From Owenia fusiformis (lineage: Eukaryota; Annelida; Polychaeta; Sabellida; Oweniidae), in NCBI GenBank assembly GCA_903813345.2, contig CAIIXF020000010.1, forward strand, positions 16,193,181-16,257,180: a stretch of DNA of 64,000 bases, given 5' to 3'. Below are positions 11,278 through 46,457 of this stretch, in pieces. A model generated the notes under the pieces. That model was not told the DNA's origin. It saw only the letters and a program-made list of their open reading frames with translations, and searched no databases. Each line of letters starts with the position of its first letter. Position 1 is the stretch's first letter. The position numbers were made by a program, and so were the translations under genes.

Positions 11278-14200
11278 TAGTATAGACTATATTAATGCAA
11301 GTTTAGCAGCCCCGTCCCAAAGATTGGTGCCTGTGACAGCCCGGGTTATAAATCATTTCAAATCTACCACGCTGATCTCTTCTCAACCGATGGAAGGAAC
11401 TAAATACGTGCTCATTTAACTACTAGTATGCGGTGATACCAGGGGAAATAACCATATAGAAAGTCGTCTGTACGTCGACGACGAACCCTGATTGGCTCGG
11501 TGCGATCAGATATTTATTGTAAACTGAAAGAGTGAAGACGAAGCTCTCTTTTAAGAAGTGAAGTCGAACGAAAGCAAAGGGTATATTGTGTTAGCAGCTA
11601 TCGTTAACATGCCCCCCCCCCCCTACCAATATCACTTTTTGTAAATTAGTAAAATCAGATAAGAGACAAGCGGCATAAATCCCTTAGATTTAAAAGCCAC
11701 GAGCGAAGCGAGCGGCGAAAATTGTCAAGAAAATATTTGCACAAAACCTGAGAAAAAATCCTAGGGATTTCATTGCTTATTCACTAATATTCTTTTTCTG
11801 TAACGCAAGGTTTTCATCTTATCTCCGCTAGGTAATTATTTTGTAATGAGAAACCTATAGTTTATTATTGACAGGGGCAGTTTTTATATTTTTTCTTTCA
11901 TAAATATATTTGCGTTTTGAAACACAGTTAACCCCTTTAAAGGAATAAGTGATTTCTTTTAGATAAAGTGGAAAACAATATTTCCCATGTTGTTTTCCTA
12001 TGGGGAACTCATGCAATCCATTGCTTTCAGCTAGTCACCCATAATGGATATTTTTAGAACCCCTAGGAATTACTTATTCCTTAAAAGTGGTTAACTTTGT
12101 GTCAAAACAAAACATAGTGATGCAACAAAAATTAAAAAAGCAGGGGTGGAAGGGGTTTCAAATCAGAACAACATTTCAGAAAAAACATGTGGGTTGGTTG
12201 TTAGCACCTCCCCTGTCTCAGAGTCGAAATTATTTTAAATGCTTTTCCTGGAGGTAATGCATTGATCTAACATATGTACCTGTTTAAATCCTCAGAGAAT
12301 AGCCAAAATCCAACATATGACCATTCGAAATCTGTTGCACTAATTTCCCTCCTCCTTTCAAGACAGAAAATAGAGAGTAATGATCGATTTGATTTGTTGA
12401 AATAAGCTAGGTAATTGCAATTGGGCCATCATGCGAGATCCATGCCTCCTTCAGCTAGACATATTTTCTAGACATATATTGCCTGAGTATGAGAATGTAA
12501 ATAAGGTATTAAGGCTCCCTTTCCGGATCAGTTTCTCCAAGGAAGATCTTAAACATAAAGCATATTGTCGGATATCGATCACAATGGGTTGTCCTCTCAG
12601 CAACTGGGGATACGAACCTAACTACTTAGACCTCTGTTGGCCCAGACCTGGTTTGGAGTTCTAAGGGTACATGCAGTCCAAGGAGAGAACACGGTAATGG
12701 GTTTAAGTTAAGCAAACATATTGAATACGATAATCATAAAATGTCCATTTATCACAATTATTCCATTGTGGCGGTGTGTATCAAGTCCTCCTCCTTCTAA
12801 TGTAGGCCTTGAACCAAGAAGCTTTTAAATCTAAAGGAAATTAACTCACACACTCTGGAAGGACTTATTGACTGCTCTTGGGGGGGGGGGGGACTCTGAG
12901 CTTCGGGGATCTTGTCTAACGTAACTTCCCTGCGGTAATCCGGCTATGAAATTATTTGAAGATGAAAGATTAAATTGTTATGGCAACTTTAAAACTGGTG
13001 AAACTCGAGAATCCGTTCAAATCTATTGAAAGCTGAAACGTTCAGCCTTACAATAGTGTATGGGAGTATGTGGGGTAAATTACATCTCAGAAGAAAACAC
13101 AATAACTTGATCATGACACCTTAAACGTAGAAAAATTGTTTTACCAATTGTTTTGCCAATGCTCGGCGCAGTGTAATATCCTGAAGAAATCCTGCTGTAC
13201 TTAAGTTCATCAACAATTCCTTGTTGTTTGTCGCTTAACTGTTAATGAAATTGTTTGTTTACGCGTCTACTCTGCCCGTCATATTCGGTTCTAAATCTTC
13301 GTTGTTCTCTAAATAAATAGGGTTGACACGCCATCACTGGAAAAAGTTACTTTAGGCTTAGGTTACCTTAAGAGGTGATGTTTTAGTCAATTGAGGTAAG
13401 AAATTTTTTAAATCGTTGATAAACTTGTTAAACATTTTTAACAAAGATATGTACTTGACTGTAGTCTGTAGACCCACCTACATATGTTGGGCCAAAATGT
13501 AACCAGATAAAAAAAGAATATAAAAGGGCCACTTGATTGAATATAAGAGTTTTGGAAGTCAAGTCTCAAGGGTGTCCTTTATTTTTATCAAAACATCTGG
13601 GCTCCTATAACTGATCCCGGAGGTACGCCAGGATTTATATGAAAGTCAGTGAAGAAGTCTGATATACGGTCATCCACTGGGACAACATCACTCACTTGAC
13701 ATTTATTTGGTAATAAAGTTAGGGTTAAGAGTGCCAGGGATTGCAGACAGAGTGCAATCTTGAACCAAAAGTTAGAATTATGTTTGTAATGGACTAGTGG
13801 AATCCGTGGTATTACCATATCCAACATGCTTTTTTGCAGTCCTTTTTCGTTCTTGGGGTATTTTTCTTATCATGTAAGTTATTGAATACATGGTCTCTTA
13901 ATGGATGGTACTATTCGATTGGCCACTATAGAGAAATTATCATTTATCTATATCTATTAAATTTGTATCTCAATGGAGTAAAGTAGGTTGTGTTGCACCA
14001 CTGTATCCCAGACACTCCAGGTTCCTTTGTGCTGTGGTGTCCGTTCGAATGATTGTACATTCTCATATTCTAAACATTAGCGATGGAGTTCCATGACTTA
14101 AGAAGGTCCCAAGATGTGCTAATTTACCTGCAGACTCGGTTGGATAATGAGACCTGTTGTTTCAGCTAATCACGTCTTACACCCCCGGGAAGCTAAAAAT

Positions 14201-15500
14201 GCCAGGCCAATTATAACATACCATTGGATTTACCAGTTGTGATTTAATTAAACGAAAAGGCTTGCAGCTTGTACATTTTCACCCTGATAGTTCAATAACT
14301 GTCACAGAAGTAATTATAGAGTTGCGTTTCAGAGGGTTGAGCGATATATTGCTTTATTAATACTTTAGTATCACTTTAGTCATTCCATCATGTGAACTTG
14401 CAGTCAAACTTTCTTCCAGACTGTGTATATAAGCTTACACCGTGTCTATATTAATTATCTCAAGTAATGTTGCAAATTCTTGTACCCATATCAGTCTTGC
14501 TTCAAGATTGTGGACCCCCCCCTCTATCTCCTACACAACACATAGTTGTTAGGGTACATAGTCCAGGGTCTTTAAACAAGACTATACCCATGATATGATA
14601 CCAATCTCAAAATTATGTGGTGCAGGATATAAAATATCCTTTTTGATTTGGTCTCCATGACTGAAGCCAGTGGGTCCAAGCACGAAATATTTCACTATAG
14701 GTGAATTCGAACGTTATCTTTTGGTCCCATTTCTTTTTAAAAATATTTATTGTAGAATTATTGATAAAAAATGTTCATCTGTTTACAAAATCGGCAATTG
14801 AATAGTTTTGCAAATTGAGACCCTCACCCATATGGCCACTTCTTTGCTGTTACTGTACGTATACCTTTTTGCACCTGAAACCTCGAGAAATTATAATAAT
14901 TTCTCTGTAGCAAATTATTTACAAGAAACCCTGCAGGTCATAATTTCCTGTATGACTGTCCGTCCTAAAGTAATCACGATAATGACTGCGGCATTCATCT
15001 GTCGGACAGACTGTAACATATTCCGAACATTGACATCACACATACGGGACTAACCGTATAGAAATATTCCAGTGTCAGGAGATGATCCTAGATGGTAAGA
15101 AGTCAGACATGAGCAGACCATACACTCCTGGTAGATGTGACCTATAATTACTCATTGAAACGCTAACAAGCGTTTTGGTCCAGCTTTCATATCTATTAAT
15201 ATTCCTAGGAGCCGTGGTTTAGTTTAATAGAAGTCATTATTGATGGAACACAAGTAAATCTAATGAAATTAAAGAACCCCCAGGGATTTCTGATATCTAG
15301 GCCCGCTAAGTCAACATTTACCTTGGCCTCCGTTACTAATTATATTTTTTAATGCTCACATTAGGTGTAATAAAGTCCCAATAAATGAATTGAATAAGAG
15401 ACATTAAACAATGGACAATGGTCAACAAAATTCTGAATTGTCGATACTTTTGCATATGGTTGAAGAAAATTATTCCCTGTTTAAAAATGTGCTTCACGTT
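11278..15500. other. Noncoding part of segment A
   Basis: No gene is supported. It carries C- and G-runs near 11612 and 12880 that are much longer than in B (at 35845 the second is only GGAGGGG). Confidence 0.5.
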
Positions 15501-15673
15501 CCGGTGTAAAAGGGTAGAAGGTCCTATCAAATTATGGTCCTACTCTTCATTGATTTATATGGTGACCTAAATACAACTCTTTCCCTCATTATCTTATACG
15601 CAATCAGGGCCAGTAAGAGCCGTTAAGAAAGGGGACCATAATCCCTGGGGGACCATCAATTCTTTCATACCGG
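15501..15673 (-). mobile_element. CCGGTG-family element, copy 2 (reverse)
   Basis: Begins CCGGTGTAAAAGGGTAGAAG and ends TTCTTTCATACCGG, the reverse orientation of the copy at 9190. Its counterpart in segment B is at 38871-39043, so it predates the duplication. Confidence 0.85.
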
Positions 15674-16229
15674 CCATCTTGAGAACTTTACCTTCACCTT
15701 GTATTGGTTTTTCATGTAATAATCTATATACCTAGTCAAGCCGAATAAGTCTGGCATGTAAAGACTAAAACAGGAATAGCCCGGTAAGGCCGTTAAAGTC
15801 TTCAGTCGCTCGGCAGGTCAGAGAAATGTCTTTACTTTTGTTTTTCTGCGCATGATTTTTGAGCTTCTACTTCCGGAAATGATCGATGATTTATTTGCTC
15901 TAGAATCACCCCTAAATAGTCACCAATGAATACAATTTCTATAAGATACGTCTTAAGAATGAATTGAAGCATATTTTAAGCCCAAATATTTGTAAATATA
16001 TCGATCGAATCAAGTGTGGTTGGCGATCAAAAAAATATTTCGAAAAATCGAGACTTGTTTTTTATGAAGTTCGTCGATGTTTTAAGTGGAACAGAAATTA
16101 TTTTTTCACAGAAACATAGCAACAAGCCCAATGAATCAGAATAACTTGGAAAAACATCCTCATTTCAGATGGCCCGGCTATGATACGCTTTTTCCCTCGG
16201 ATATTTTATCATTTTTCGAAAAATCCAAT

Positions 16230-16286
16230 ATGGCGGCCGACGAAGAAAGTGAGAACAACCCGATTAAGAATTTTTTTCCTGAATAA
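16230..16286 (+). CDS. Possible first coding exon over an ATGGCGGC start
   Basis: CCAATATGGCGGCCGACGAAG gives a start reading MAADEESENNPIKNFFPE and then a stop. A possible donor (AAA|GTGAGA) lies after the sixth codon. AATATGGCGGC fits the YY1-type initiator often found over start codons. No downstream exon was found on this strand before a LINE fragment and the minus-strand gene, so it may be a dead promoter or chance. Confidence 0.2.
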   Translation: MAADEESENNPIKNFFPE

Positions 16287-16362
16287 CTTCTCCAATCTGC
16301 GTTTAATTTAATGATTAGAGGAACACTTTATACAGGATAGCGTACGCATTGTTATTTTAACA

Positions 16363-16475
16363 GTGGAGATAATGAAAACGCCAGAATATAGACAGTTGAA
16401 CTGTGTCGAATGCCTTCTGAAAGTCAAAGTATGCCTTGTCTTCTTTCTTCAAATCATGGGCTTTCAAGAGATTAC
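16363..16475 (-). pseudogene. LINE reverse transcriptase fragment
   Basis: On the minus strand a frame reads KAYFDFQKAFDTVQLSIFW. This is the F-x-D-x-x-K-A-F-D-x-V motif of non-LTR retrotransposon reverse transcriptases and contains the first catalytic Asp region. About 35 residues can be recognised; upstream the frame breaks. It is an isolated fossil of a LINE lying between the possible ATGGCGGC start and the terminal exon of the minus-strand gene. Confidence 0.7.
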
Positions 16476-16679
16476 AATGTATTCTTGCAGGTCTAGGATC
16501 AGAATAATATTTTCCCCAACATATTGGTTTTCAAGTCGCAGAGTAGTCCTGTTTGATCATATTGAATACTTTTTTTGTAATACTGATATGATTTTACTGC
16601 TATCGGATCTAAAATTAATTAAAATAATTATGATTATAATTTAGCGATATTTGTAACTTTTTTACAGGGCACGCAAGAA

Positions 16680-17000
16680 ATCAGCATTATCAATAAAGTA
16701 ATATTATCGCTGGTACTGATAATTTTGATAGCCTGTATTCCTATTAGCAATAAATTCGATAATTATCAATAATCGACAAGTTATCAAAATTATCTGCTAT
16801 TGTCTGATAATTCTAAATTCACTTTGTCCATTTTCTTATAAACTGAATAACTTTGGCTTCGGGCAAAATAGATTTTTTAGATTTAGACAAAATCATCAGA
16901 TTGAGTAAAACTTTTATCAATTTTGATAAAAACTCCGATTGAAATAACATTGGCTCTGGAAAATAAGGAAGTAAAAGTGACTTCCATACCAACCTCAACC
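16680..17000 (+). repeat. Diverged relative of the interior of the 4.3-kb TIR element
   Basis: Shares a run of features with 26690-27250 and 31250-31815. All three have clusters of GATAATTATCAAT, then CAGATTTAG or TTTTTTAGATTTAG, TTTTATCAATTTTGATA or its variant, GGCTCTGGAAAA or GGGGCTGGAAAA, and AAAAGTGACTTCC or AAAAGTGACTTTCC. Similarity is partial, pointing to an older insertion of the same family. Confidence 0.5.
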
Positions 17001-17526
17001 AATGAGATCTACATGAACTTTTTAGATGATCAGATATTGTCTTGTCAGAAGTTCAGAACTCCAAATGGTATTTAGCCTTGGCCCTAGACCATGGTTATTC
17101 ACAAATAATGGAAACTATAGAGGACTATACACCAACCATGTCAACAGCTAGTACTTTGTCTATCATATGGGTCATGTCTACATTCATCACTGGGCCTACA
17201 GTCCAATCTAACTAGTTTTTTCCAATGATTTATGATCAGCATAAGTTACAACACAGCAGGATTTAGTTTCAATAGAATTATAATTGTAAAAATATATTAA
17301 CAGTATAAGTTTCATGAAAAATAAATACATGGAGATATTTCCATATGCTGACGATAAATGAAAAATCTAGTCATACATTTGGGTCCCCAAAATTCAACTT
17401 AAAGATAGATTAGTTTATATAAAAAAGTAATATATTTATATTGAAACATCATTAAGTAAGTCAAATATGACTTTTAATTAAAACAGATCAATAGCATATA
17501 AAACATGAAAAAACTAAATAATTGCA
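17001..17526. other. Noncoding; 3' side of the minus-strand gene
   Basis: Lies downstream of the terminal exon on the minus strand. A possible ATTAAA poly(A) signal (TTTAAT on the plus strand) occurs near 17474, about 50 bp past the stop. Nothing else is recognised. Confidence 0.35.
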
Positions 17527-17631
17527 CTATTTAAGTTTGATAGGCTTTGTATGTGGTGAATAACAAATAATCTGTTCCAACACATCATCATTTCCCTCTC
17601 TGATATGTTCTTTGCACCAAATGTTCTCATA
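17527..17631 (-). CDS. Terminal coding exon (exon 3)
   Basis: The minus strand shows acceptor TTGCTTTAG and then 34 codons from YENIW to PIKLK, followed by TAG. The frame follows phase 0 from the previous exon's AAG|GTAAAT. The composition is clearly protein-like (charged and hydrophobic residues mixed, GC above the flanks), which is why I take it as a real exon. Confidence 0.5.
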   Translation of the reverse strand, partial: YENIWCKEHIREGNDDVLEQIICYSPHTKPIKLK

Positions 17632-20600
17632 CTAAAGCAATATTAAATTGGTTTGCTATATCAAATATCTTGATTGATCATTGAATCTACACATATTGAC
17701 CATATTCTTCACTTGCATAAATACTTTCAAGAACCCATTGCATGGATGTCATTTTGCATCTGATCCTCTAATTACTCTTACAATGATTACAAATGCAAAA
17801 TACTTCCATGTCGATAAACATATTTGTGTAGTTACACATTGTCGAAACAATTTATTGAACAAACCTATTGTAGGAGCTTACTGCAAAACTATTGCTATAA
17901 GTAAAGTAGTAGCTTCTTAATAACTTTTTCTTTAAGAATGAGTAAACAGCACCTCTCTTTTTTGTGCAATGGAATTTGGATGGGTATACAAGTAAAGAAT
18001 GATTGATATATAAACAGTTCAGTTTTTTAAAGTCCATGTCATAGTTGTAATCACTCAATTCTTATTCTGCTGTTCAGTATACTTGTTGCATCTCATTAGA
18101 CTTGTTGTCTTGCATTTCAGTAACTGGAAAAACAACATACAGATTTGGGTGATACTTGAAATGACAGAATATGCTTTAATAAGTTTTCAGGAAATGTTCT
18201 GATAAATGAATTTTATCACTGACATGCTTAATTATTCTCAAAAATATATCTGATACATAGTCTAATGGATAATATTATAGTATACAACAAAATTTAATCA
18301 AATTTATTTAGGAAACTGCATTTTTTGCTACAAAAACTATAATAGACTTTTTAGAATAAAGAAGATAAGAATAAAGACTAAAATGGAATGCTGATAGCAC
18401 AATCTTGTTTGAAGCATTCTATCATTTTGTCTCCATTTCTGTACTCCTTTCATAGAATTTCTTTAGAATTGACAAACTGACCGAAGCATATTTAATGTTC
18501 ATATTTTAACTAGCAGGCATATTCACCTTGCACTCAGCAGAGATGTTAAAAGCAGCCCCTCAGCACTCTGTACACAGCAGCTGGATCTTCAGCCCCAAAT
18601 GCAACACAGTATGCATCTCAGCAATGGTTAAAACATAGCTGAAAATGAACGCTATACTGATGAAACACCACGTGAAATAAAGCATAGTACATGGAGTAGA
18701 AGCATCATCACAGGCACAAATTCACTAGACATTGACTTATTTTGACTCGTATCTAAAATGAAACTGGGGATATGTGAAATGCCCATGAATAGTGCTTTTT
18801 CTCATTTTGCCTCACTTATTTTTGGATCCTGGCTACACCCCTGCACTTTACATCAATCGCTATGTATCACTAATTCCTATTCAATTTCAGGGGAAGACCT
18901 GTACCATTATTTAGAAAAACAGTATTCAAATTTGCAAATTTTGGGAAATTTCAATTTCACTGCCACTTTCCAGATTTCACAAATTTAACTTTCACTTTTC
19001 TCTCTTCAATGGATACAATACAAATGAAAAATCATGTAAAATAAAACCAAGTAGAAGCATCATTTGCCATTGGTACAGGCACAAGTTAAACATGTATTTT
19101 ATATTCACTGCACTAGATATTGTATTTGAAATGAAACTCTGAATACGTAAAACTTGTTTTCTAAATTTCTCTCACTATTTTTGGATCCTGGCTACACCTC
19201 TGCACTTTACATAAATCACTATGTATCACTGTTTTCCCCAGATTAGTGGTAGGTTATTTCAGAAGATCAAAAGTATTCTCCCAGTATATTTTGACGCAAT
19301 GCAATTCTGCGAATCTTGAGGAATCAAAATTTCACTGCAATGAATTTTGCAGATTTCATTAGTTGAAATTTCACTATTCTCTGAATCACAAAGATTTGTA
19401 AACCTACCTTTCGACCTTCAAATTTTAAATACTAGGATAATGGAATATTTACCTTGCACTCAGCATATATGTTCAAAGACAAGCAGCCCCTCAGCACACT
19501 GTACACAGCAACTGGATCTTGGGCTCCATAATGCAACACAGCTTGAATCCTAGCATTGGTCAAAGCATATCTGAAAATGAATACTATATCTATGAAACAT
19601 CATGTAAAATAAACCATCAGTGGAAGCATCATTTGCAGTTGGTACAGGCACATATTACATGTATTGTATATTCACTATAGACTGATAGATATTGACCTTT
19701 GAGTCAACTTGATCCTTAAAATGAAACTGAATATTTTAAAGTCTTATGAAAGTGAATTTTATTGATTTGCCTCACTTATTTTTGGATCCTGACTACACCC
19801 CTGTACTTAACATCAATCAGTGTAACACCAATTTCCATTCAATTTGAGGGAAAGTCCTGTTTCTCCCAGATCTTAGTAATAGTTGTAAGTTATTTTGGAA
19901 AAAAACGATATTGTTTTCCCGGTATACGGTATGTTTGAAGCAATTCAATGTTGCAAATTATGAGAAATCACAATTTCACTGACATAAGTTTTGCAAATTT
20001 CAAAAGCTAAAATTTGACTTGGCCTATTCTTTGAATCTTCAAGATTTTTAAACCTAAGTATCTCTTAGACTCCCTGAAGTTTTAAAAGTAATGCCTATGG
20101 CACAAGCAATAGTTCAATAATGTACAGTAATCAAATTGTATAGTACACAGTGTATAAATATTACACTGGGGCTTTATTTGGCAAATATCGCCACAATTAT
20201 CTTTTGCGATTTTTACCATTATTGGGAGTCGGGTGTAATTAATTGCATGCAAAAAAATACTGGGAGTAGAGCAACTGATTATAATGGGGTTGCCATATAG
20301 GTTTGAATCGCAATGGTCCAAATCCGATTGGCTCAAATCCCATTGGTCCATATCCCAATGGTTCAATTCTAAGTTGTCAGAATTAATGCAATTTTATACC
20401 ACCATTGGTCTTTGGGTGAAATTAAATTGCATGCAAAAATAAAAATGGTACAGCAACTGATTATAATAGGGTTGCCACATTGGTTCGAATCGCAATGGTC
20501 TGAATCTGATTGGTCCGAATCACATGGGTCCATACACCAATGGCACCAATGATCCGATTCAAGTTGTCTGAATTTCAGTTGTCGGAATTCAATCCCACAG

Positions 20601-21119
20601 GCCCAGGAACATGTATGACAAAATCAAGTCAAGTCCCCGGCTCTTTTCAAATTTTTGTACATGTCGCCCCGGGCCTAGCTATGGAATCCCATGTGTCCGA
20701 AACCCAATCGTCCAAATCCTATTCGTCCGGAATCCAGTGTCCAAATCTCAATGGTCATGATTATCACAAATCTGCTCAGGCCCGTAGCCAGGGGGGGTTT
20801 CGGGCAAACCCCCCCCCTGGCCTAAATTTCTTTCAAAATCATGCAGTTTTTCACCATTCTGACTATTTTTTGAGTGATTTTTGGCCAAATTTGCCAAAGT
20901 GAACCCCCCTAGAATTTTTTGGAAAAGTGAACCCCCCTTGGAAAATTCTGGGTACGGGCCTGCTGCTCTCACTTACACAAACAGACCAAAATGAATAACT
21001 GTGACATGATACAGGTAAGGCTTGATACAATTCAAAGAGTCTACACTGGGTGCACACATAACTACTATTGAGATTTTACAAAAAATTACCTTCAAAATGT
21101 AGTCGATATCAGTAACCAG
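17527..21119 (-). CDS. Spliced minus-strand gene of unknown function (partial model)
   Basis: Three exons fit together in phase: 21119-20977, 19570-19453 and 17631-17527, ending at a stop. All junctions are GT-AG. Exon 1 carries NCIKPYLYHVTVIHFGLF and ends with 2 nt of a codon. Exon 2 completes it and carries YALTNARIQAVLHYG, then a DPVAVYSVLRGC block and NIYAECK. Exon 3 carries YENIWCKEHIREGND and ends in TKPIKLK. The model gives about 120 residues from the acceptor at 21119, or about 100 if the in-frame ATG in exon 1 (MCAPSVDS) is used. A hydrophobic stretch (HVTVIHFGLFVYAL) spans the first junction. I do not recognise the family. The 5' end is unresolved; upstream exons may exist. The whole gene lies in the A-only block. 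Confidence 0.5.
18527..18638 (-). pseudogene. Decayed duplicate of exon 2
   Basis: 112 bp match the 118-bp exon at 19453-19570 and keep acceptor TTTTCAG and donor AAG|GTGAAT. A 1-bp loss early in the exon and a 5-bp loss near its end shift the frame between them and create a stop, though the total length change is a multiple of 3. Like exon 2 it would enter in phase 2 and leave in phase 0, so including both would break the frame. Confidence 0.65.
19453..19570 (-). CDS. Coding exon 2, intact copy
   Basis: 118 bp between acceptor ATTCATTTTCAG and donor AAG|GTAAAT, open throughout in the frame set by exon 1 (GT|A-TAT). It encodes YALTNARIQAVLHYG then AQDPVAVYSVLRGC and NIYAECK. The existence of a diverged copy nearby, with the same splice sites, supports its being a true exon. 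Confidence 0.55.
20225..20760 (+). repeat. Tandem ~190-bp repeat with AATCC-ATTGGTCC mini-units
   Basis: GCAACTGATTATAAT then GGGTTGCCA recurs about 190 bp apart (20270 and 20452). Each is followed by 12-14-bp units such as GGTCCAAATCCGATTGGCTC and GGTCCGAATCACATGGGTCC. A further run of GTCC-AATCC units continues at 20690-20760. Noncoding. Confidence 0.7.
20777..20962. mobile_element. G-run mini-element, CAGGCCCGTA family, 5-bp target duplication
   Basis: Starts CAGGCCCGTAGCCAGGGGGG and ends GGGTACGGGCCTG. It is flanked on both sides by CTGCT (20772-20776 and 20963-20967). The interior includes CATGCAGTTTTTCACCATTC and two GTGAACCCCCC blocks. Relatives lie at 34435-34595 (reverse) and 51190-52092. 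It sits just inside the intron after exon 1. Confidence 0.85.
20977..21119 (-). CDS. Coding exon 1 of the partial model
   Basis: 143 bp between acceptor GTTGACTTATAG and a strong donor GTAAGTGAG, open in one frame for 47 codons plus 2 nt. That frame joins exon 2 in phase. An internal ATG (MCAPSVDS) at about residue 21 could be the real start. An alternative reading has an early donor at GTAATTTTTT, which would make the first ten codons a separate exon. Confidence 0.45.
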
Positions 21120-21710
21120 CTATAAGTCAACATTAATCGCCCCAAGACAGTGTTACACCTAAAATAAACACAAATAAAAAAAATTATGATGGAATTCATC
21201 ATTATTTTTCATATATTTCCTAGAAATATTCGATAATTCCTGAAACCGGAAGTTGGGTTACCTCCGATTATTTGTTAAATATCGCTACATTGACCGGGGG
21301 AACATTAATTCTGTTTTAAATTACAAAAAATACGATTTATTTTGAAGAAAATCAAGTCAACATTCAGCCCCAATCTTTAATGGCCCGGTTGTGATACGCT
21401 TTTGCAGACTTACCCTAAATCTATCACTCAAAACGTACCAGCCTTCTTTGAGCCTTCTAAAAACCTATTTCCCGTCGAAGAAAAATAATGTTCGATACAC
21501 CAAAATGTCGAGAAAAGACTCGTTTTTGAAACTAAAATGGCACGACATTAGTTCCTTGTATGGGGTGGGTCATGCCTCCAAAAGAGAGAGCTCTCTCGAG
21601 AAATCTCGCGGAGTCTCGTTAGACGATTCCCCGGGAAATTCAAGCTTGATTTGAAAATTAAATTTTCTTATTTAGTGTAGCGCGCAGCTGGCCTGCGTAT
21701 CAGCTGTCTT
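21120..21710. other. Possible promoter side of the minus-strand gene
   Basis: 21540-21700 is CpG-richer than its surroundings (for example AAATCTCGCGGAGTCTCG). The minus strand has a donor-like GGGTAAGTCTG near 21408, which could end an untranslated first exon. A coding exon is not supported here. Confidence 0.25.
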
Positions 21711-23091
21711 GTATTGTAATTAACAGACGTTCTCTTATATTTTGGGAGACATTAGAAAATTCTTGACTTTTTGATTACGTTCGTGCAAACTCAATTCAAT
21801 AATGAGACATGTTGTTTCAGCTCGTCATGTCTTACACCCCTGGGAAGCTAAGAATTCCAGGCCAATTGTAGTGATTTAAACGAAAGGGCTTGCAGCTTGT
21901 TGTGATTCAACTTCCAAAGAGTAATTAGATTGTTGCGTTCCAGATAACGTCGCCTTTGTTAATAACACCAACTCGTTTATTTCCATTTATACTTGGCGAG
22001 ACTTTATTTGTTAAGAATTTTATTTCAAACATTTGTTACGGTTCAGATCTGATGGTACTTGTGTCTGGCTCGTACCGGTTCTTCTCTCGATAATATCCGT
22101 ACAGGTTTATTATGGTGAAATGTTATTCCTTCTGAAAATGTAATCAAAGTTTCATTTCAGTGAGATTTAGATTTGAGCGAAAGGATATAATCGGGACTAC
22201 ATGAGAGAAATCACGGGTAAAATCCAGTTAATCCACGCAGGAAGAGATGTGGCTTCCTGAGGGGAGAAAGAAGCATACAATCTAAGTTATATTTTGATAT
22301 GTTAAGCTGAAATAAACTAAACTTATAATCTAGCAAATAGTGAAGAAAGCTCATTTTGCTAATTGATTAGTCACGTATAAATTACGTAAAGAACCACATA
22401 AAGCCAGATTTATTGATGGATTCACAGTTTATTCTCTTAAAAAGACTTCTGGATTATGAAATAGATGTCTTTGAGCTGTTGGGAGTAATGGAGTAATTGT
22501 TATTGCTATAAAATATTCATTGTTATCGTAACTCATCTCACTAGTTTCTATTACTAGAATGAATATAGTAACTTACCAAAGGGTAAATCGCATAATCTCA
22601 ACTAGGGATGATTAAAGCCCCCCTATAAAGTTTAAACAAAAATGATTTTTTCTCAAAAGTAGTTTTTGTTCGAATTTATCCAAAATAAACTTTTTAAGGT
22701 ATGTCACATATAATTCACACCAATGGATACATTTCATCCTTCCATGTTTTTTTGCCGAAAATTGGTTCATAAATAAGCGAGAAATGAACCCATCCATGCG
22801 TAGGAATGGTTCACAGAAAAATGCATAATGTCAAAATTTTAGTTCTCAGAGACTTTGTATAAAAAAAACTCGTAAGCCTACTTCGTACCCACGTACACAC
22901 GTACGTGGGTCGTGATACAGTCTTCGAAGGGTTCAAGTTTTAAACTTTTAAAAGTTTATTCAATCTTTGTTATTGCTAACTTAGATGTATTAATGCACTC
23001 ATAGGATGTAGATGTGAAATTCGTCTCGTCAAGGATAGATCATAAGATAAAGCCAGAATTGTTAGTTTGACTTTTTTTATTGTTTGTCAAA

Positions 23092-23484
23092 AAGCGCCAT
23101 TCAAAGGCTCGTTCAAAGGGAAAATCTATGATAAAATAGTTTTGAATGTTGGGGATTTGCTAAATGGAATTATGTGTTTCATTTCATTTTTCAGCCCTGT
23201 AATTGTTTGCTTAGCGGCGGAATATGATTTGCTATCTGGTTCCAATTTGAATGATTGGGAGAGTGGAAAAACAATAAAGGTTTTAATGCAATCTAAATGT
23301 GGAAATAAAGTGACAACTTTAAGACGACTTCCTTGGATTTTACAAAAATTGATGTAACTTCCTTCAAAATTGAGCTAAAAGCTTCATTTTAAAAGCATTT
23401 TCAAGTTCTTTTCGTCTTCTATCTAATAGTTCTATTTTTATTGGTTATTGGTGCACCCCCCCCCCCCCTTGGCTACTGGCGCTT
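23092..23484. mobile_element. Small element with AAGCGCCA ends and a C-run (segment A copy)
   Basis: Starts AAGCGCCATTCAAAGG and ends CCTTGGCTACTGGCGCTT, with a run of about 14 C before the right end. The interior (TTTTACAAAAATTGATGTAA, CTTCTATCTAATAG) matches the element at 25485-25746. The B counterpart is 40736-41608, split by a later insertion. Confidence 0.65.
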
Positions 23485-34248: not shown

Positions 34249-34724
34249 GAACGATCAGATGAGTCCCCTAACAATCTTCTCAACTAAGGACTCTGAGACT
34301 CCGATTGAACAAACTTCAATTTTGCCTCATGCCTCATACATGTTCATGGGCTTATGATTCCACTTCTGTACTCATCTTAAATGGATTGGATTCACCAACT
34401 GTTGAATCGATGTGGATTCACTAATAGTCCGGGCCAAAGGGGTTCATTTTTGAAAAATTCCAAGGGGGTTCATTTTAACAACTTTGTCCCCAAAAATGCC
34501 CAAAATCCCCTGAAAATGCTCAAAATGGTGAAAACTGCATGAATTTGAAGGAATTTTGGCCGGGGGGGGGGGGCTGGTACATGCCTATCATAACCAGGGT
34601 TTCACTTTCTCTTGAAAGGCCATGTAATAACCTAGTTCTCTTCCCGGGTTCTCTTATTCAGCTCATTATATATTCCCTGGTAGCCTAATTGCGCACAGAG
34701 TCTAGTTATAAACTACCCTCTGCC
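34249..34724. other. Spacer between the two segments
   Basis: Apart from the G-run element at 34435, nothing is recognised. It ends immediately before the B-segment start. Confidence 0.4.
34435..34595 (-). mobile_element. G-run mini-element, CAGGCCCGTA family, worn copy
   Basis: Relative to 20777-20962 it is reversed: GGGTTCATTTTTG, AATTCCAAGGGGGTTCATTT, AATGGTGAAAACTGCATG, then a 14-G run and GTACATGCCT. The terminal bases have diverged from CAGGCCCGTA. Confidence 0.65.
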
Positions 34725-37700
34725 TAGTATAGACTATATTACAGTAAGTTTAGCAGCCCCGTCCCAAAGATTGGTGCCAGTGACAGCCTGGGTTATAAAT
34801 CATTTCAAATCTACCACGCTGATCCCTTCTCAACCAATCAGCAAAGTGGAAGGAACTAAATACGCGCTCATTTAACTATGCGGTGATGCCAGGGGAAATA
34901 ACCATATAGAAGGTCGTCTGTATTTCGACAACGAACTCTGATTGGCTCGGTGATATCAGAGATTTATTGTAAACTGAAAGAGTGAAGACGAAGCTCTCTT
35001 TTAAGGAGTGAAGTCGAACGAATGCAAGCGAGCGGTAAAAATTGTCAAGAAAATATTTGCACAAAAAATTGGCACCCACCTGAGAAAAATCCTAGGGATT
35101 TCACTGCTTATTCACTAATATTCTTTTTCTGTAACGCAAGGTTTTCATCTTATCTCCGCTAGGTAATTATTTTGTAATGAGAAACCTATAGTTTATTATC
35201 AACAGGGGAGATTTCATCCTAACAACCAATTATCAGGAATTATCTAACCATAGTGGGACTGTATATAGGTAACAAATTGTTTTAATAATTGTTTTTCGCC
35301 GAAAAATGTTTCACTGACATAAATTTCAAGACAGAAAAAGAGAGTAATGATCGATTTGATTCGTTGAAATAAGCTAGGTAATTGCAATTGGGGCATCATC
35401 CGAGAGCCATGCCTCCTTCAGCTAGACATCTTTTCTAGACAGATATTGCCTGAGTATGAGAATGTAAATAAGGTATTAAGGCTCCCTTTCCGGATCAAGT
35501 CTCTCCAAGGAAGATCTTAAAGATAAAGCTCATTGTCGGATCTCGATTAAAATGGGTTGTCCTCTCAGCAACTGCGGATACCAACCTAACTACTTAGACC
35601 TCTGTTGGCCCTGACCTGGTTTGGAGTTCTAAGGGTACAAGTCCAAGGACAGAACACGTTAATGGGTTGTTAAGCAAATATATTGAATATGATTAATCAT
35701 AAAATGTCCATTTATCACATTAATCCCATTGCGGCAGTGTGTATAAAAAATCCTCCTTTCTTCTGATGTAGGCCTCGAACTAAGAGGCTTAAATCTAAAG
35801 GAAATTAACTCTCTCACTCTGGAAGGACTTCTTGACTGCTCTGGAGGGGAACTCTGAGCTCCGGGGATCTTGTCTAACGTAACTTCCCTACGATAATCTG
35901 GCCATGAAGTTACTTACTATTGAAAGCTGAAACGTCCATCTTTCCGATGGTGTATAGGAGTATGTGGGGTAGATTACATCACTCTCAAAAGAAAACACAA
36001 TAACTTGATCATGACACCCTAAACGTAGAAAAATCGTTTTATTATTTGTTTGCCAATGCTCGGCGCAGTGTAATTTCCTGAAGAAATCCTGATGTACTAA
36101 GTTCATCAACAATTCCTTGTTGTTTGTCGCTTAACCGTTAATGAAATTGTTTGTTTATGCGTCTACTCTACGCGTCATATTTGGTTCTAAAACATTTTTG
36201 TTCTCTTAATAATTAGGGTTGACACGCCATCACTGGAAAAAGTTACCTTAGCTTAGGTTGCCTTAAGAGGTGATGTTCTGGTCAATTGAGGCAAGAAAAA
36301 ATTAGAATCGTTATTGTTAAACCTTTTTAACAAAGATATGTACTTGACTGTAGTCTGCAGACCCACCTACATACGGTGGCCCAAAAATGGGATCAGGTGA
36401 AAAAAGAATATAAAGGGCCACTTGAATATAAGGGTTTTGGAAGTAAGAGTTTTGGAAGTCAGATATCAAGGGGTTCCTTTATTTTTATCAAAAACATGTG
36501 GGCTCCTATAACTGATCCCAGAAGTACACCAGCAGGATTTATATGAATGTCAGGGGAAAAGCCTGATATACGGTCATCTACTGGCACAAAAACACTCACT
36601 TGACATTTATTGGTAATAAAGTTAGGGTTAAGAGTGCCAGGGATTGCTGACAGAGTGCAATCTTGAACCAAAAGTTAGAATTATGTTTCTAATGGACTCG
36701 TGGATTCCGTGGTATCACCATGTCCAACATGCTTTTTACAGTCCCAGAAATCAATAGTCTCTATGGATGTAGCAATGCCTTTTTCGTGGGGTATTTTTCT
36801 TATCATGTAATTTTTGAATACATGGATGGTAGGATTCGATTGGCCGCTATCTGAGAAATTACCATTTATCTTTGTTAATTTGCATCTCAATGTAGCAAAG
36901 TAGGTTGTGTTTCACCACTGTATCCAAGACAATTCAACTTCCTTTGTGGTGTCCGTTCGAATGATTGTACATTCTCATATTCTAAACATTAGCGATGGAG
37001 TTCCATGACTTAAGAAGGTCCCAAGATGTGCTAATTTACCTGCAGACTCGGTTGGATAATGAGACCTGTTGTTTCAGCTAATCACGTCTTACACCCCCGG
37101 GAAGCTAAAAATGCCAGGCCAATTATAACATACCATTGGATTTACCAGTTGTGATTTAATTAAACGAAAAGGCTTGCAGCTTGTACATTTTCACCCTGAT
37201 AGTTCAATAACTGTCACAGAAGTAATAATTATAGTGTTGCGTTTCAGAGGGTTGAGCGATATTGCTTTATTAATACTTGAGTATCACTTTAGTCATTCCA
37301 TCATGTGAACTTGCAGTCAAACCTCCTTCACCTACATCATACCCATATGATATCAAAATATCTCAAAAATATGTGGTGCATGATATAAAAGATATTTTTA
37401 TGATTTGATCTCCATGACTGAAGCCAGTGGGTCCAAGCACGATATATTTCACTACAAGTGAATTCGTACGTTATCTTTCGGTCCCATTTCTTTTTAAAAA
37501 TATTTATTGTAGAATTATTGATAAAAATGTTCATCTGTTTACAAAATCGGCAATTGAATAGTTTTGCAAATTGAGACCCTCACCCATGTACCCACTTTTT
37601 TTTGCTGTTACTGTACGTATACCTTTTTGCACCTGAAACCTCAAGAAATTATAACAATTACTCTGGAGCAAATTATTGACAAGAAACCCTGCAGGTCATA

Positions 37701-37857
37701 ATTTCCTGTGTGGCTGTCCGTCCTAGAGTAATCACGATAATGACAGTGGCATTCATCTGTCGGACATACTGTAACATATTCCGAACATTGACATCACACA
37801 TACGGGACTAACCGTATAGAAACATTCCAGTGTCAGGAGATGATCCTAGATGGTAAG
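34725..37857. other. Noncoding part of segment B
   Basis: Counterpart of 11278-15100. No gene is supported; open frames correspond to equally unsupported frames in segment A. Confidence 0.45.
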
Positions 37858-37970
37858 ACAGAGTAACCTCAGTTCCCAGTTGAAACTACTAAAGCCTTAC
37901 CTTTCGGTATCCTTTGTGACCCTATACGCCATCAAACATAACTGAGATATTAAAATGTGACACTACTCTT

Positions 37971-38262
37971 TGGCGGATCCGGGGGGGGGGGCATGGGGCC
38001 CGCCCCCCCCCCTAAGGTTGGCCCAGAAAAAAAGTTGGGTCCAAAAGAGATTTTAGGCCAAAATAGGCTTTAATGCCCCAAAAAGTGGGCCTTTTGGTCA
38101 TTATTGGGCCTTCTAAGGCCTTATTGTTTTAATTTTAGGCAAAATTTTGAAGAAAATGGGCCTCAAATTTTCAAAATTTGGGCCCACTTTTCGGTTTTAG
38201 GGGCCCAAAATTTCTCTGACCTCAAATTTGGGCCCCCCCCCTGTTGGTTCCTGGATCCGCCA
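37971..38262. mobile_element. G-run mini-element, TGGCGGATCC family
   Basis: Ends are TGGCGGATCC and GGATCCGCCA, with a G-run inside the left end and a C-run inside the right. The interior is rich in GGGCCC-AAA motifs. It is part of a ~420-bp stretch (37858-38277) that segment A lacks. Relatives are at 49087 and, more worn, at 48152 and 10095. Confidence 0.8.
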
Positions 38263-38366
38263 CTGCTACTTTTGATAAGAAGGCAGACGTGAACAAACCA
38301 TGATCACTCCTGGTAGATGTGACCTATAATTACTCATTGAAATCGCCTTCAAGTTAAGCATTGTCA

Positions 38367-38538
38367 CCGGTGTGAAAGAAATGATGGTCCCCAGAGATTA
38401 TGGTCCCCTTTCTTAACGGCCCTTACTGGCCCTGATTGCGTATAAGATAATGAGGGAAAGAGTTGTATTTAGGTCACCATATAAATCAATCGAGATTATG
38501 ACCATAATGTGATAGGACCTCCTACCCTTTTACACCGG
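38367..38538 (+). mobile_element. CCGGTG-family element, copy 4 (B only)
   Basis: Left CACCGGTGTGAAAGAAATGA, right CTACCCTTTTACACCGGTG. Segment A at about 15160 lacks it. About 24 bp of extra sequence precede it in B, so a clean target duplication is not visible. Confidence 0.85.
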
Positions 38539-38870
38539 TGCTAACAAGCGTTTTGGTCCAGCTTTCATATCTATTAATATTCCTAGGAGCCGTGGTTTAG
38601 TTTAATAGAAGTCATTATTAATGGAACACAAGTAAATCTAATGAAATTAAAGAACCCCCAGGGATTTCTGATATCTAGGCCCGCTAAGTCAACATTTACC
38701 TTGGCCTCCGTTACTAATTATATTTTCTAATGCTCACATTAGGTGTAATAAAGTCACAACAAATGAATTGAATATTAAACAATGGACAATGGTCAACAAA
38801 ATTCTGAATTGTCGATACTTTTGCATATGGTTGAAGAAATATATCCCTGTTTAAAAATGTGCTTCACGTT

Positions 38871-39043
38871 CCGGTGTAAAAGGGTAGAAGGTCCTATCAA
38901 ATTATGGTCCTACTCTTCATTGATTTATATGGTGACCTTAATACAACTCTTTCCCTCATTATCTTATACGCAATCAGGGCCAGTAAGGGCCGTGAAGAAA
39001 GTGGACCATAATCCCTGGGGGACCATAATTTCTTTCATACCGG
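38871..39043 (-). mobile_element. CCGGTG-family element, copy 5
   Basis: Segment B counterpart of 15501-15673, nearly identical and in the same position. Confidence 0.85.
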
Positions 39044-39165
39044 CCATCTTGAGAACTTTACCTTCACCTTGTATTGGTTTTTCCTGTAATAATCTACACC
39101 TAGTCAAGCCGAATAAGTCTGGCATGTAAAGAATATAACAGGAATAGCCAGATAAGGCCGTTAAA

Positions 39166-40304
39166 GTCTTGCAACTAACAGACGTTCCCTTATATTTTGG
39201 GAGAAATTAGAAAATTCTTGACTTTTTGATTACGTTCGTGCAAACTCAATTGGTTAATGAGACCTGTTGTTTCAATTCGTCATATCTTACACCCCTGGGA
39301 AGAAGAATTCCAGGCCAATTCATCTTGCTTCATCAAGCTTCAGACCTATCCTCAGATAGAACGTTGTGATTGAGCGTGGGAACCGACAATGGCCAATTGA
39401 AGTGATTTAAACGAAAGGGCTTGCAGCTTGTTGTGATTCAACTTCCAAAGACACTTTATTTGTTAAGAATTTTATTTCAAACATTTGTTACGGTTCAGAT
39501 CTGATGGTACTTGTGTCTGGCTCGTACCGGTTCTTCTTTCGATAATGTCCGTACAGGTTTATTATGGTGAAATGTTATTCCTTCTGAAAATGTAATCAAA
39601 GTTTCATTTCAGTGAGATTTAGATTTTAGCGAAAGGATATAATCGGGACTACATGAGAGAAATCACGGGTAAAATCCAGTTAATCCACGCAGGAAGAGAT
39701 GTGGCTTCCTGAGGGGAGAAAGAAGCATACAATCTAAGTTATATTGTGATATGTTAGGCTGAAATAAACTCAACTTATAATCTAGCAAATAGTGAAGAAA
39801 GCTCATTTTGCTAATTGATTAGTCACGTATAAATAACGTAAAGAACCACATAAAGCCAGATTTATTGATGGCTTCACAGTTTATTCTCTTAAAAAGACTT
39901 CTGGATTATGAAATAGATGTCTTTGAGCTGTTGGGAGTAATGGAGTAATTGTTATTGCTATTGTAGAAAATATTCATTGTTATCGTAACTCATCTCACTA
40001 GTTTCTATTACTAGAATGAATATAGTAACTTACCAAAGGGTAAATCGCATAATCTCAACTAAGGATGGTTAAAGCCCCCCTATAAAGTTTAAACAAAAAT
40101 GATTTTTTCTCAAAAGTAGTTTTTGTTCGAATTTATCCAAAATAAACTTTTTAAGGTGTCACATATAATTCACACCAATGGATACATTTCATCCTTCCAT
40201 GTTTTTTTTCCGAAAATTGGTTCATAAATAAGCGAGAAATGAACCCATCCATGCTTAGGAATGGTTCACAGAAAAATGCATAATATCAAAATTTTAGTTC
40301 TCAG
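39166..40304. other. Noncoding part of segment B
   Basis: Aligns with 21717-22840 of A. No gene is supported. Confidence 0.45.
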
Positions 40305-40492
40305 CAAGGAGGATTGGAAGCCAGGGTTCCAACTCGATATTCTTTAATCTCCACGCATGCGTCATTTGCTATTCGTGTCTGTATAATTTGTACGACTGCA
40401 TGGAGAATGACCCGATACTCTCCAACAAAGCTATCGCTAGGTGATTGTTTTGCAGAATATCGGTGTTGCATTCTGGGAGCCAATCCTCCTTG
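40305..40492. mobile_element. 188-bp hAT-like mini-element (B only)
   Basis: Starts CAAGGAGGATTGG and ends CCAATCCTCCTTG. The 8-bp target GTTCTCAG is duplicated at 40297-40304 and 40493-40500. Segment A has the single site at about 22842. CA...TG ends plus an 8-bp duplication point to hAT. Confidence 0.92.
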
Positions 40493-40735
40493 GTTCTCAG
40501 AGACTTTGTATAAAAAAACTCGTACTTCGTACCCACGTACACACGTACGTGGGTCGTGATTCAGTCTTCGAAGGGTTCAAGTTTTAAACTTTTAAAAGTT
40601 TATTCAATCTTTGTTATTGCTAACTTAGATGTATTAATGCACTCATAGGATGTAGATGTGAAATTCGTCTCGTCAAGGATAGATCATAAGATAAAGCCAG
40701 AATTGTTAGTTTGACTTTTTTTATTGTTTGTCAAA

Positions 40736-41608
40736 AAGCGCCATTCAAAGGCTCGTTCAAAGGGAAAATCTATGTTAAAATAGTTTTGAATGTTGGGGAT
40801 TTGCTAAATGGAATTACTGTACTCCGGGTAAATTTCGACGCTATAAAATTTCGCGATTTTTCAAAATTGCAATTTCGCGGCTATTTAATTTCGCGGATTT
40901 GAGTTGATGACGTTTCGCAGATTGTACAAGTTGAATTTTTTTTCCTATTACCGTGAATCAATGCGGGCTATTTTAGCCCGTTCAGAATCCGAATAATGTT
41001 TGTATTTCCCACGTTTAGGGCATTTATTTGAATATTCTTGAATGGCTTTTTAACTTCAATTTGTAGGATATCATTGTCGTCAACAGTTCTTGCCTTTGTT
41101 GGCCTAATAAGCCAATTAAAAATGTTTTTAGACCTTCGCCCAACAACACTGGAAGAAACGTTTCACACCGAACGAAACATATCAAAAGGCCCGGGGATTT
41201 AAGACAAATTTCGCGACGATAAATGTTCGCGATTTTACTACATTCGCGAACAAAGCGAAATTAAATCGCACGCGAACATTACCCGGAGTACAGTATGTGT
41301 TTCATTTCATTTTCAGCCCTGTAATTGTTTGCTTAGCTATGGATGATGATTTGCTATCTGGTTCCAAATTGAATGATGGGGAGAGTGGAACACCCATAAA
41401 GGTTTTAATGCAAACTAAATGTGGAAATATAGTGACACCTTTAAGACGACTTTCTTGAATTTTACAAAAATGGATGCAACTTCCTTCAAAATTGAGCTAA
41501 AAGCTTCAAATTGAAAGCATTTTCAAGCTCTTTTCGTCTTCTATCTAATGATTCTAATTTTCATTGGTTATTGGTGCACCCCCCCCCCCCCCTTGGCTAC
41601 TGGCGCTT
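40736..41608. mobile_element. AAGCGCCA element, B copy, interrupted
   Basis: Counterpart of 23092-23484, enlarged by the TA-target element at 40817-41293. Confidence 0.65.
40817..41293. mobile_element. 477-bp TA-target mini-element with TTTCGCG motifs (B only)
   Basis: Starts CTGTACTCCGGGTAA and ends TTACCCGGAGTACAG, flanked by TA on both sides (40815-40816, 41294-41295). Segment A has the empty TA in GGAATTATGTG. TTTCGCG or its inverse occurs repeatedly inside both ends. TA targets suggest a Tc1/mariner-type driver. No open frame. Confidence 0.92.
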
Positions 41609-43183
41609 TAAAACATGAACTGTTTTGAGAAACGGAAGTGATGAAATAGGGTTGAAAAATCACGTTTTGACTTTCCAGACGATTGCGTTATCTAAAACTT
41701 TCTCATATGATTCTTTTCTCTAAATATGTATGGGATTGCATTAAAAAACCAAGTTGAATATTTAAAACCCATGTTTAAACTGAGGATCCGAGTGATACAT
41801 GCGTTTTTCACCTCATAAACAGGAAGTTAACTTTTGAGTCGAAAAGACTATGATAATCCTCATGATACGGGAAAGTCAAAATGTTTCTTTAATTTGGAAA
41901 ACATATATTATAGCTATCCTTACAATCCAAGGCTGACTAGACATTGTTTTATACAATTTAACGGCAATGCGCAAAATGTAATTGTAATGTAAATATGAAG
42001 GATTTACGAGTCATTTATCAACCGGAGCTTACATTATCATAGCATCACAAAGACAAGGACATTGTGAACTTATACATTGGGAATATAAAGAGAGAAGATC
42101 ACCATGTTTTCGCAATGGAATTATTGTTGTTAACGAAATTATAGTAGACACCTAATAGCCACAATAAGATTCTTTTTCGATGTCTTCTCTCGTGCTAACA
42201 TCTTTTGTGACTTGTACTTGTAAATTAGCAGAGAGATCGCATTATCTTAGTACGTATTGTAATTAGATAAACGTCGTGAATAATAAGAGTAAAATACAAA
42301 GATTGGTAAATGCAATCAACTAAATATGCAACTTTGAGAAACCATTTAGAAAATACCAAAACAAGAAACAATCTAGTACCCAATATCAAAATAGTCAAAA
42401 CAGCCTGCAAAGTATCTGCAGATTTTAAACTTGATATCTGCCCTTGATTAATAGTGTAAACAACAGTAGCCTATAAATTGGGTGAGATACTATTTTTTCT
42501 CGAATAGTAAGATTTATATTGGAAATGCTCATGCTGATGAGTTGTGAGTCTGTCTGTGAGTTAATATATACTGAATTAATGTTGAGTTTATGACCTACCA
42601 ACAGCTGAACATGTCAGTATTCAACAATTGCTACCTGTATGTGTAATAATGTAACATTTTATCATCTGTTGTATGTTCAATGGGTGCACTCTATTGGAAC
42701 TATTGCTATCCTAGCATTTGCGGTAAAATAGATACTATCCATTCTGATTTACAACATCAGAGTCTCTCTTTATACAATAAGTTTGTGATAACGAGGGATC
42801 GTGGAGACTTTGGATCCCACAACACATACTATCTCAGTGTCAGGTTTAGTCAGCCGTGTATGATTACTAATTGATATTGGATTATATGATAACAGAAAAT
42901 GATGGGACAATTGTAAGTGGAACTCCGTGTATTGACAATGAATGTGTCTACATAGTGACAGTTAATCGTTCCTGTTGATAATAACCATTTATGACTCATT
43001 TACTCGCATGTTGTATTTCCGGTTCCGTTGCAATTTATTTCACATATAGTCTAATGATATTTGTAATCTAGCGCCTTGGGTCGTTTACCTAGAATATTTG
43101 AATTATTGTATTTACTCAGTCTAACTAAAATTCATAAAAAGTTGTTCAATTAGGGGGGGGGGGGATTTTCTGATATAACTTAA

Positions 43184-44521
43184 TAGTCCATGGTATGAAT
43201 AAAGGAGCTGGTAGCACACTATAGCGCAGCGATATTTGACCTAACATAAACATACCTACATATGTTCCCTAATAATTTTTATTATTACCGTTTGATATAC
43301 TTCCGGCTTTTAGGCTGAATTATACCTGCCATTAACAGAGGTCAAAAAACTACCAAAAAATGAAATCCAAATTTTTCCCAATTTGGAGTACACAATGCGA
43401 CAGAAAGTAATACAAAATGATTTTAAATATATGATTTAAGTTTTTAAGCTATAAATTTGAGGTTATTTTTCTTATCAATACCCAAAAATTGTGTAATCAG
43501 TGTATCGACGTTTTGTATTGTTTCTCAGGTATTAATAAGATAAATGTTACAAATGATTCACTTTTATATTAGAATGACAAATGCTTAAAATATGCTAGTT
43601 TTTCACAAAATGGGTCTCAATACGTTTTGAGATATGGACATGAGATATTATCAATAAAGGAGGGCATATTGTTCTTCCTTGAAAAATTGAGTCTACAGCT
43701 AAAATTATATTTCTCGTAGTTAGATATAGCTCAGTTGCTTATAAAACAACCATCAAGACTTGGTCGAATTCATGAATGATTGAGAAAAATCGTTATCATT
43801 TTCTTCCTTAAATCTGATTGTATCCAGCGGTAAGGTCAAAAAAGAAACAGCCATCAGAAAACTTGATGATAGCCACAAGTAACGTCGAGGAAGAATTGTA
43901 AGGCGTTCGATTGCATATTACTCTAATTAATTATCAGACATGCCCTTGGAATATATGAACATTCCAATACCTCTGTAATAGTTAATTAGATATAAATCGT
44001 ACCTATTTGTTATTGTATTATGTTTAATAAAACAGGAACAATAACTTGTTGTTAGACCTCTTGCGATTATATAGAAAAATTCTGGTAATAAAATGTTTTA
44101 AATTGTAAGAAAACTAATATGTTTCCAATCATATGTTATCTAAATATTCTACACAATTCTGTTGAATCAGCTTGGCTCATATTTGTAAAATCAAACGAAA
44201 TCTGAAAAATACACTTGCGTAATTACACTAATTAAACACCGATATCTACAGTAAAATTATAGTATATTTTTTACATTATGATAATCTAGTTTTTGTTCGT
44301 ATGCTTAGAATTACGGTCTGTGTCTTATAAAATTTATAAAAGTTCGAATGAAAATATTTACGTTTTTTGACCCCTTGTTTTGAAAGACATTTTTCGACCC
44401 GAAAGCCGGAAGTTTTTTCAGCAAATGGTATTTTAAAAGAATCAAGACATTATTGCTTCAAATTTTGCTGCGCTATAGTGTGCTACGGATCCTTCATATT
44501 CGGAAGTCATACCATGGACTA
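43184..44521. mobile_element. 1338-bp TIR element with TAA target duplication (B only)
   Basis: Starts TAGTCCATGGTATGA and ends TCATACCATGGACTA, flanked by TAA at 43181-43183 and 44522-44524. Segment A has the empty ACTTAAGAG site at about 29447. Inverted similarity continues inward (GTAGCACACTATAGCGCAGC; CTTCCGGCTTT; GGTCAAAAAAC). The 3-bp TAA duplication fits the PIF/Harbinger group. No open frame survives or ever existed here. Confidence 0.9.
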
Positions 44522-44678
44522 TAAGAGAAAGGGAAAGATATAGACACATTATGCAGTTACAGTATACGTTTACTTTCATTCATTACTTTCACGTTTACTC
44601 ATGACAATATCTTTCTCGAAATATGTGACCAAAAGTGCAAAAAGGGAAAATACCCAAAATTACAAAACACAATATGCA

Positions 44679-46022
44679 CAGGGGATGTACCGAATTAAGC
44701 GTGACAGTTGAACGCACAGGGTTAGGTACAGCACGAGGGTGATGACATTTGAGCAAACTGATGTTTTCATCGGTTCAGAAATATCTGGTCTAGTTTCTAG
44801 ATATTTTTATATGTAAATTTATGTAATAATATCCTAGACGGTGAATTTAAAGGTGGATTTCATAGTTCAACCTTCACAAACTCCGAATGTAAGTATAACG
44901 CGCAGGTAAAGGACCGCGAGTTGTTTGCTGTAAAATGAATCTGGGGTCCACTTGCGGTCCTTTGCCTTACGGTATAACGCAGATTGAAATTATTCCTTGT
45001 TTTGCACCTTACCGTTACCGCGCTTTATACCGTTTATATTGGCAAAGAACTACACAATAGCAAATTAAATTACTACAATTTATTCTTCAGTATTAAACTC
45101 AAATAACCTACAAATAAACAAGTTTGGCATAGGGAATACATCCACCACGGCATTAGCTATACGAAACCGTTTGTGAGGTGAAGACAATATAATTTCTCCT
45201 CGTGATAGGCCAAAGTATACACTAAAAGTTATATAATGAATAATAAGATATAATGAACAATATAAAAGGTTAACGTATACTCCATAACTTATATATACTA
45301 CAAGGAGAACTTATAAAGTACTATAAGGAGAACTTATATATACTATAAGGAAAACTTATGTATAATATAAGCAAAATTTATATTGGCAAAGAACTACACA
45401 ATAGCAAATTAAATTACTACAATTTATTCTTCAGTATTAAACTCAAATAACCTACAAATAAACAAGTTTGGCATAGGGAATATATTCACCACGGCATTAG
45501 CTATACGAAACCGTTTGCGAGGTGAAGACAATATAATTTCTCCTCGTGATAGGCCAAAGTATACACTAAAAGTTATATAATGAATATATAAGATATAATG
45601 AACAATATAAAAGGTTAACATATACTCCATAACTTATATATACTACAAGGAGAACTTATAAAGTACTATAAGGAGAACTTATATATACTATAAGGAAAAC
45701 TTATGTATAATATAAGAATATGTATTATACAATAAAACATCACCTCTCAAACTATATGAAGTTATGTTACAAATCTTTGGGGTAAGCCCAAAAATAAAAT
45801 GCCTTATAGGTATTTGTATTCCTATATTTCATTCGAGTTTGTGTAGGTTTAAATATAAAATTCACGGTCACGTTCACTGTTGGATGTTGCTACGAAAATT
45901 CATCCTGAAACCAGACTAGACCTTTCTGTAATTATGAAAACATCAATTTGCTCAAATTTCACCAACCTTGTGGTGTATACCCCGCGCGTTCAACTATTAT
46001 GCTTAATTTGGTACACACCCTG
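44679..46022. repeat. Fold-back element, B copy
   Basis: Arms as described for 29588-33680: left 44679-44990, right 45830-46022. A ~795-bp B-only stretch sits between them. Left end CAGGGGATGTACC, right end GGTACACACCCTG. Confidence 0.65.
45030..45825. repeat. B-only insertion with a ~346-bp tandem duplication
   Basis: TTATATTGGCAAAGAACTAC starts two nearly identical units at about 45034 and 45380, each ending in repeated AAGGAGAACTTATA motifs. About 110 bp of unique sequence follow. Segment A reads straight across (ACCGTATATTTCATTC). No target duplication or inverted ends were found, so its type is unknown. Confidence 0.7.
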
Positions 46023-46457
46023 TCGCATGGAGAAAACACAAGTGAGTAACCAGTCATATTGAAAACAGTCCCCAGTATCCTTAAATGCAATATCCTAATA
46101 ACATTTTTAAATCTCGCACAACTAATTTATATTTTCAAACGTATGTTCTTTATTTGTTTGTTTTCAAGACTCGTAAGTATAATTGCTCCCATTCATCATA
46201 CAATATTAGTAGTTGAAAACAAACCGTTGCTAATAACAATAATACACTAATTAAGAATTGATACTTTAATGACTTCGAATTTATGAGTAAAAGGTTAAAA
46301 CGGAGTATGTAAACATCATAAATCACACATCCTATACCTGGTTCAACAATACTTTACTTTATAGCATGACAAACTGACTACGACAACGTTCTGGCAACAG
46401 GTTTGTCTTAAACAATTCCGATTCAGCAATCTGTACTACTGAATAAAAGTACATTAT

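Follow-up and report, generated by a model that had tools for sequence, protein, structure and literature searches.

Two diverged direct copies of an apparently non-coding locus in Owenia fusiformis, with a Polinton/Maverick-type end at the edge of one copy

The window analysed here is a stretch of 64,000 nucleotides (C10:16193181-16257180) of the Owenia fusiformis assembly, which comprises 498 Mb in 525 contigs. Self-comparison with chaining of the alignments places two direct copies in it, termed A and B, on either side of a short spacer:

11278..34033, plus strand: copy A, 22.8 kb, of which about 8 kb is common with B
34034..34724, plus strand: spacer between A and B, 691 bp, composed of pieces of repeats and ∼92 bp of other sequence
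34034..34097, plus strand: putative Polinton/Maverick-type element, first 64 bp, cut off; four other matches, all on C4
34097..34253, unstranded: dispersed short repeat, SINE- or MITE-like, about 150 bp
34247..34595, unstranded: repeat fragment, 74% to C2:14483835-14484186
34690..34783, unstranded: multicopy repeat that begins in the spacer and crosses B's left edge into B
34725..46401, plus strand: copy B, 11.7 kb

The chained BLAST alignments form 17 collinear blocks of uniform order and orientation, the outermost of which pair 11278-11577 with 34725-35027 and 33450-34033 with 45823-46401, so the ends that an earlier note had given for the two copies hold to the base. A dispersed-repeat pair lying outside A and B (9201-9361/34097-34245) was also joined to the chain and is excluded from the 17. 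All 16 gaps between blocks measure at least 65 bp on one side, and 11 of the 16 at least 150 bp, in keeping with the 'at least nine' large insertions or deletions counted earlier. Copy-specific DNA makes up ∼65% of A and ∼30% of B, the private stretches of A including 5.9, 4.3 and 3.5 kb. B also carries an internal tandem duplication of ∼345 bp at 45033-45725 (97.7%).

Direct reading of the gap edges identifies at least five gaps as insertions of transposons, as had been proposed from the letters, each bounded by a target-site duplication and matched by an empty site in the opposite copy. These, together with the longest private stretch, are:

15803..21710, unstranded: private 5.9-kb stretch in A whose ends are unclear
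25019..29337, unstranded: private insertion in A, inverted ends GGCATGTTCTAATCAGTGGACTGGC, 9-bp target duplication CGCCTTGGG, B site empty
29657..33168, unstranded: private insertion in A, inverted ends, 9-bp target duplication GAGGGTGAT, B site empty
40305..40492, unstranded: private insertion in B, 8-bp target duplication GTTCTCAG, hAT-like, A site empty
40817..41293, unstranded: private insertion in B, TA target duplication, inverted ends CTGTACTCCGGGTAA, A site empty
43184..44521, unstranded: private insertion in B, probable TAA target duplication (Harbinger-like), inverted ends TAGTCCATGGTATGA, A site empty

The insertions at 25019-29337 and 29657-33168 belong to one family (92.6% over ∼2.4 kb). 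The superfamily names used for the insertions (Mutator-like, hAT-like, Tc1/mariner-like and Harbinger-like) are presumptive, each being assigned from the length of the target duplication alone.

Within the blocks A and B differ at 414 of 7,973 compared columns (5.19%), a count in which some neighbouring blocks overlap by a few bases; from the BLAST alignments the figures are 382 of 7,968 (4.8%) without the outside repeat pair and 408 mismatches in 8,117 columns with it. Divergence per block ranges from 1.6% to 8.8%, and the uneven spread of mismatches and the 363-bp identical stretch that had been noticed earlier are both present beyond chance: over 39 bins of 200 sites the index of dispersion is 4.94, whereas 2,000 shuffles of the mismatches never exceeded 2.10, and the identical run, which lies inside block 23912-25018/41973-43080, exceeds the longest shuffled run (at most 271 bp, 2,000 shuffles). 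The log-likelihood improves from -1628 to -1568 when two rates are fitted, ∼1.3% and ∼9.1%. Low-divergence tracts contain at least two of the private insertions (A 23171 and 25019), which for that reason look recent. The mosaic itself could have been caused by gene conversion, by haplotypes of varying age or by constraint.

The likeness of A and B extends to DNA between the repeats. Searched against the 498-Mb assembly, probe 21711-25018 has long matches to itself and to B only, the remaining listed matches all lying within query positions 1133-1630 (40 of 3,415 candidates scored), while probe 12356-15802, outside a repeat stretch, matches only A and B, its other listed matches all falling within query positions 3124-3327, a dispersed repeat of ∼173 bp (40 of 1,784 candidates scored). 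Among the candidates scored for the two probes there was no further copy of the probed DNA, on an unplaced contig or elsewhere, which is strong but not absolute evidence that it is restricted to A and B. The window is rich in repeats, and homology confined to dispersed repeats was what the earlier note had said would undo its claim; instead, the non-repeat DNA of both probes is common to the two copies and, among the candidates scored, is found nowhere else. For these probes the whole-assembly searches rule out repeat-only homology, and we regard it as extremely improbable that dispersed repeats were inserted in the same order at both places by coincidence.

The locus appears to be non-coding. 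B is without a Pfam domain in six frames at E 0.01, and a gene family was accordingly rejected as the cause of the A/B likeness; no Pfam domain was found in the 5.9-kb stretch 15803-21710 in six frames or in the 4.3-kb insertion of A in the four of six frames scanned, and the rest of A was judged by its likeness to B. The window gave no Rfam match at the gathering score and no tRNA, and a phage search returned no match. Left of A, the flank 5600-9100 is single-copy except for short repeat pieces (40 of 90 candidates scored). It contains on the minus strand, at 6189-7427, a 412-residue open frame for a seven-transmembrane GPCR (Pfam 7TM_GPCR_Srw 1.9e-31, 7tm_1 4.7e-17), which we take to be peptide-receptor-like; no second copy of this frame occurred among the same 40 of 90 candidates scored for the flank.

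The A/B homology ends abruptly on both sides. A's left edge abuts a minisatellite with a 57-bp unit (11083-11277); larger minisatellites lie at 3986-5147 (61-bp unit, 19 repeats) and 46459-47423 (33-bp unit, 29 repeats). The multicopy repeat that spans B's left edge is present in A only from 11278 and is there 35 bp shorter, and the sole match of B's right edge (46394-46461) is itself. The spacer is unlike the outer flanks in the window apart from the dispersed repeat and a single match of 36 bp (83%), and its ∼92-bp part at 34596-34687 had no match among 40 of 150 candidates scored.

The 63-64 bp immediately right of A recur at four other places, all on C4 and at 97% (5 of 5 candidates scored). 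The four C4 matches appear to be the inverted termini of two elements, 9.9 kb and 28.9 kb in span, both of which begin with AG, end with CT and are bounded by 6-bp target duplications, GACCTT and TATAAT. We take inverted AG...CT ends with a 6-bp target duplication as the signature of Polinton/Maverick elements, and name the element at 34034 on that basis. Judged from these terminal sequences, A's right edge is the exact start of a Polinton/Maverick-type element and not a duplication breakpoint, a point that is new here. The C4 copies resemble known Polintons in their AG start, CT end and inverted termini with 6-bp duplications, whereas the window holds a single 64-bp end, identified from ends alone, after which the sequence passes into the dispersed 150-bp repeat; its partner end was not found in the 264 kb around the locus. 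At 46401/46402 B lacks both the Polinton and a doubled AACAGG, and looks like the empty site. Since AACAGG is not doubled, the element was more probably never in B, its traceless excision from that copy being the less likely course.

The surroundings of A and B were compared in the same 264 kb, which contain no N bases, using three control pairs picked by eye from the strongest 70. One is a second local direct duplication, C10:16264914-16273242/16274165-16282791, ∼25 kb away, made partly of unique DNA and ∼1.5% diverged (83 of 5,418 columns). It is more complex than a simple direct pair: its spacer holds an inverted copy at 99%, and 2.8 kb of each direct copy is unshared. Because of this duplication and its inverted copy, the stretch around A and B seems prone to local rearrangement. 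A further local pair lies at C10:16293820/16302808. The pair C10:16094592/16099298 was rejected as a local duplication, being a dispersed repeat with many copies elsewhere; its two 4.2-kb direct copies (C10:16094592-16103621) differ by 0.5% mismatches and stand 459 bp apart. For 8 kb of the unplaced contig C208, no allelic partner was found among 40 of 7,664 and 40 of 1,701 candidates scored.

What the earlier note had described as two diverged direct copies with private transposons stands; the choice it left between a duplication and two haplotypes set end to end is one that a single assembly cannot separate, and the weights we give to the readings are judgements, not computed values. By a narrow balance, we consider that ∼11 kb of apparently non-coding DNA was duplicated locally and in direct orientation, A and B both being physically present on one chromosome, an origin from two alleles included, and so weakly favour a real duplication over a false haplotypic one. 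It is an explanation consistent with 264 kb of sequence free of N, although a gapless mis-join would also leave none; with probed DNA that, among the candidates scored, lies at A and B only and on no unplaced contig; and with the second, partly inverted local duplication nearby, since an inverted copy would not readily be given by the misplacement of a haplotype. The mosaic of ∼1.3% and ∼9.1% tracts fits conversion between neighbours, but mosaic divergence and private insertions would be expected equally of two haplotypes, among which coalescence times vary. The single-copy left flank likewise serves both readings, being what would be expected of haplotypes if the rest was purged or collapsed. 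For alleles, a mean of 5.2% would be high, as would the 9.1% of the diverged tracts.

That A and B are instead two haplotypes of one locus, placed end to end by the assembler (a false, or heterotype, duplication), is a serious contender to which we give somewhat less than an even chance. The assembler would have left one haplotype inside the Polinton and entered the other in repeat-rich DNA to the left of the unit, and the edges of the unit do lie in copy-specific DNA, the Polinton being in A only and the left-edge repeat being longer in B. One join would suffice here, against a duplication, an insertion and a deletion: had a haplotype already bearing the Polinton been duplicated, the element should stand right of B too, and because B's right edge looks empty, a real duplication needs both the later insertion and an extra deletion that cut the A-private Polinton after 64 bp. 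With ∼65% of A and ∼30% of B private, a join made at random would often hit private sequence; as such DNA is common in both copies, the argument from the Polinton edge is only a modest one. According to PMC9516828, false copies on one scaffold are usually, though not obligatorily, separated by an assembly gap, and are sometimes joined through wrong gap filling. A and B resemble the heterotype duplications described there in being allele-like, side by side on one scaffold and next to a single-copy flank where this was examined, and differ from them in that no assembly gap lies between the copies. An unlikely variant of the real duplication is a tandem of two alleles, in which unequal exchange between strongly diverged homologues, only one of them bearing the Polinton to the right of the unit, would have set both haplotypes in series with the join in repeat DNA. 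It would explain at once why the sequence is gapless, why the junction takes a single step and why the differences look allelic, and heterogeneous duplications joining two alleles are described for ace-1 of mosquitoes (PMC6121789, PMC5137868). Against it, the spacer pieces are different repeats and no shared sequence that could have mediated the exchange was identified at the junction.

In a real local duplication, the copies would have arisen first and then drifted apart, while some patches stayed similar, or became so again, through gene conversion or constraint. Transposons would have landed independently in each copy, including the Polinton at A's right end, and a later deletion may have removed both the original junction and most of this element; the 691-bp spacer of repeat fragments would be what was left. 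A and B are, as in a tandem segmental duplication, two adjacent collinear direct copies of non-repeat, unique DNA with private transposon insertions. They differ from the usual case in that the original A/B junction cannot be seen, in the repeat-fragment spacer that separates them and in being known from one assembly.

An old local duplication and misplaced parental versions of a locus are both ordinary. If A and B are haplotypes, pairs like them would inflate counts of duplicates, which calls for caution. Two of the visible edges of the unit, one the start of a transposon and the other a cut repeat, would be misread in studies of breakpoints. Should the pair be a real tandem of two alleles, it would offer a clean example of unequal exchange storing allelic differences on one chromosome, and what appears to be an assembly error would be the natural copy of one.
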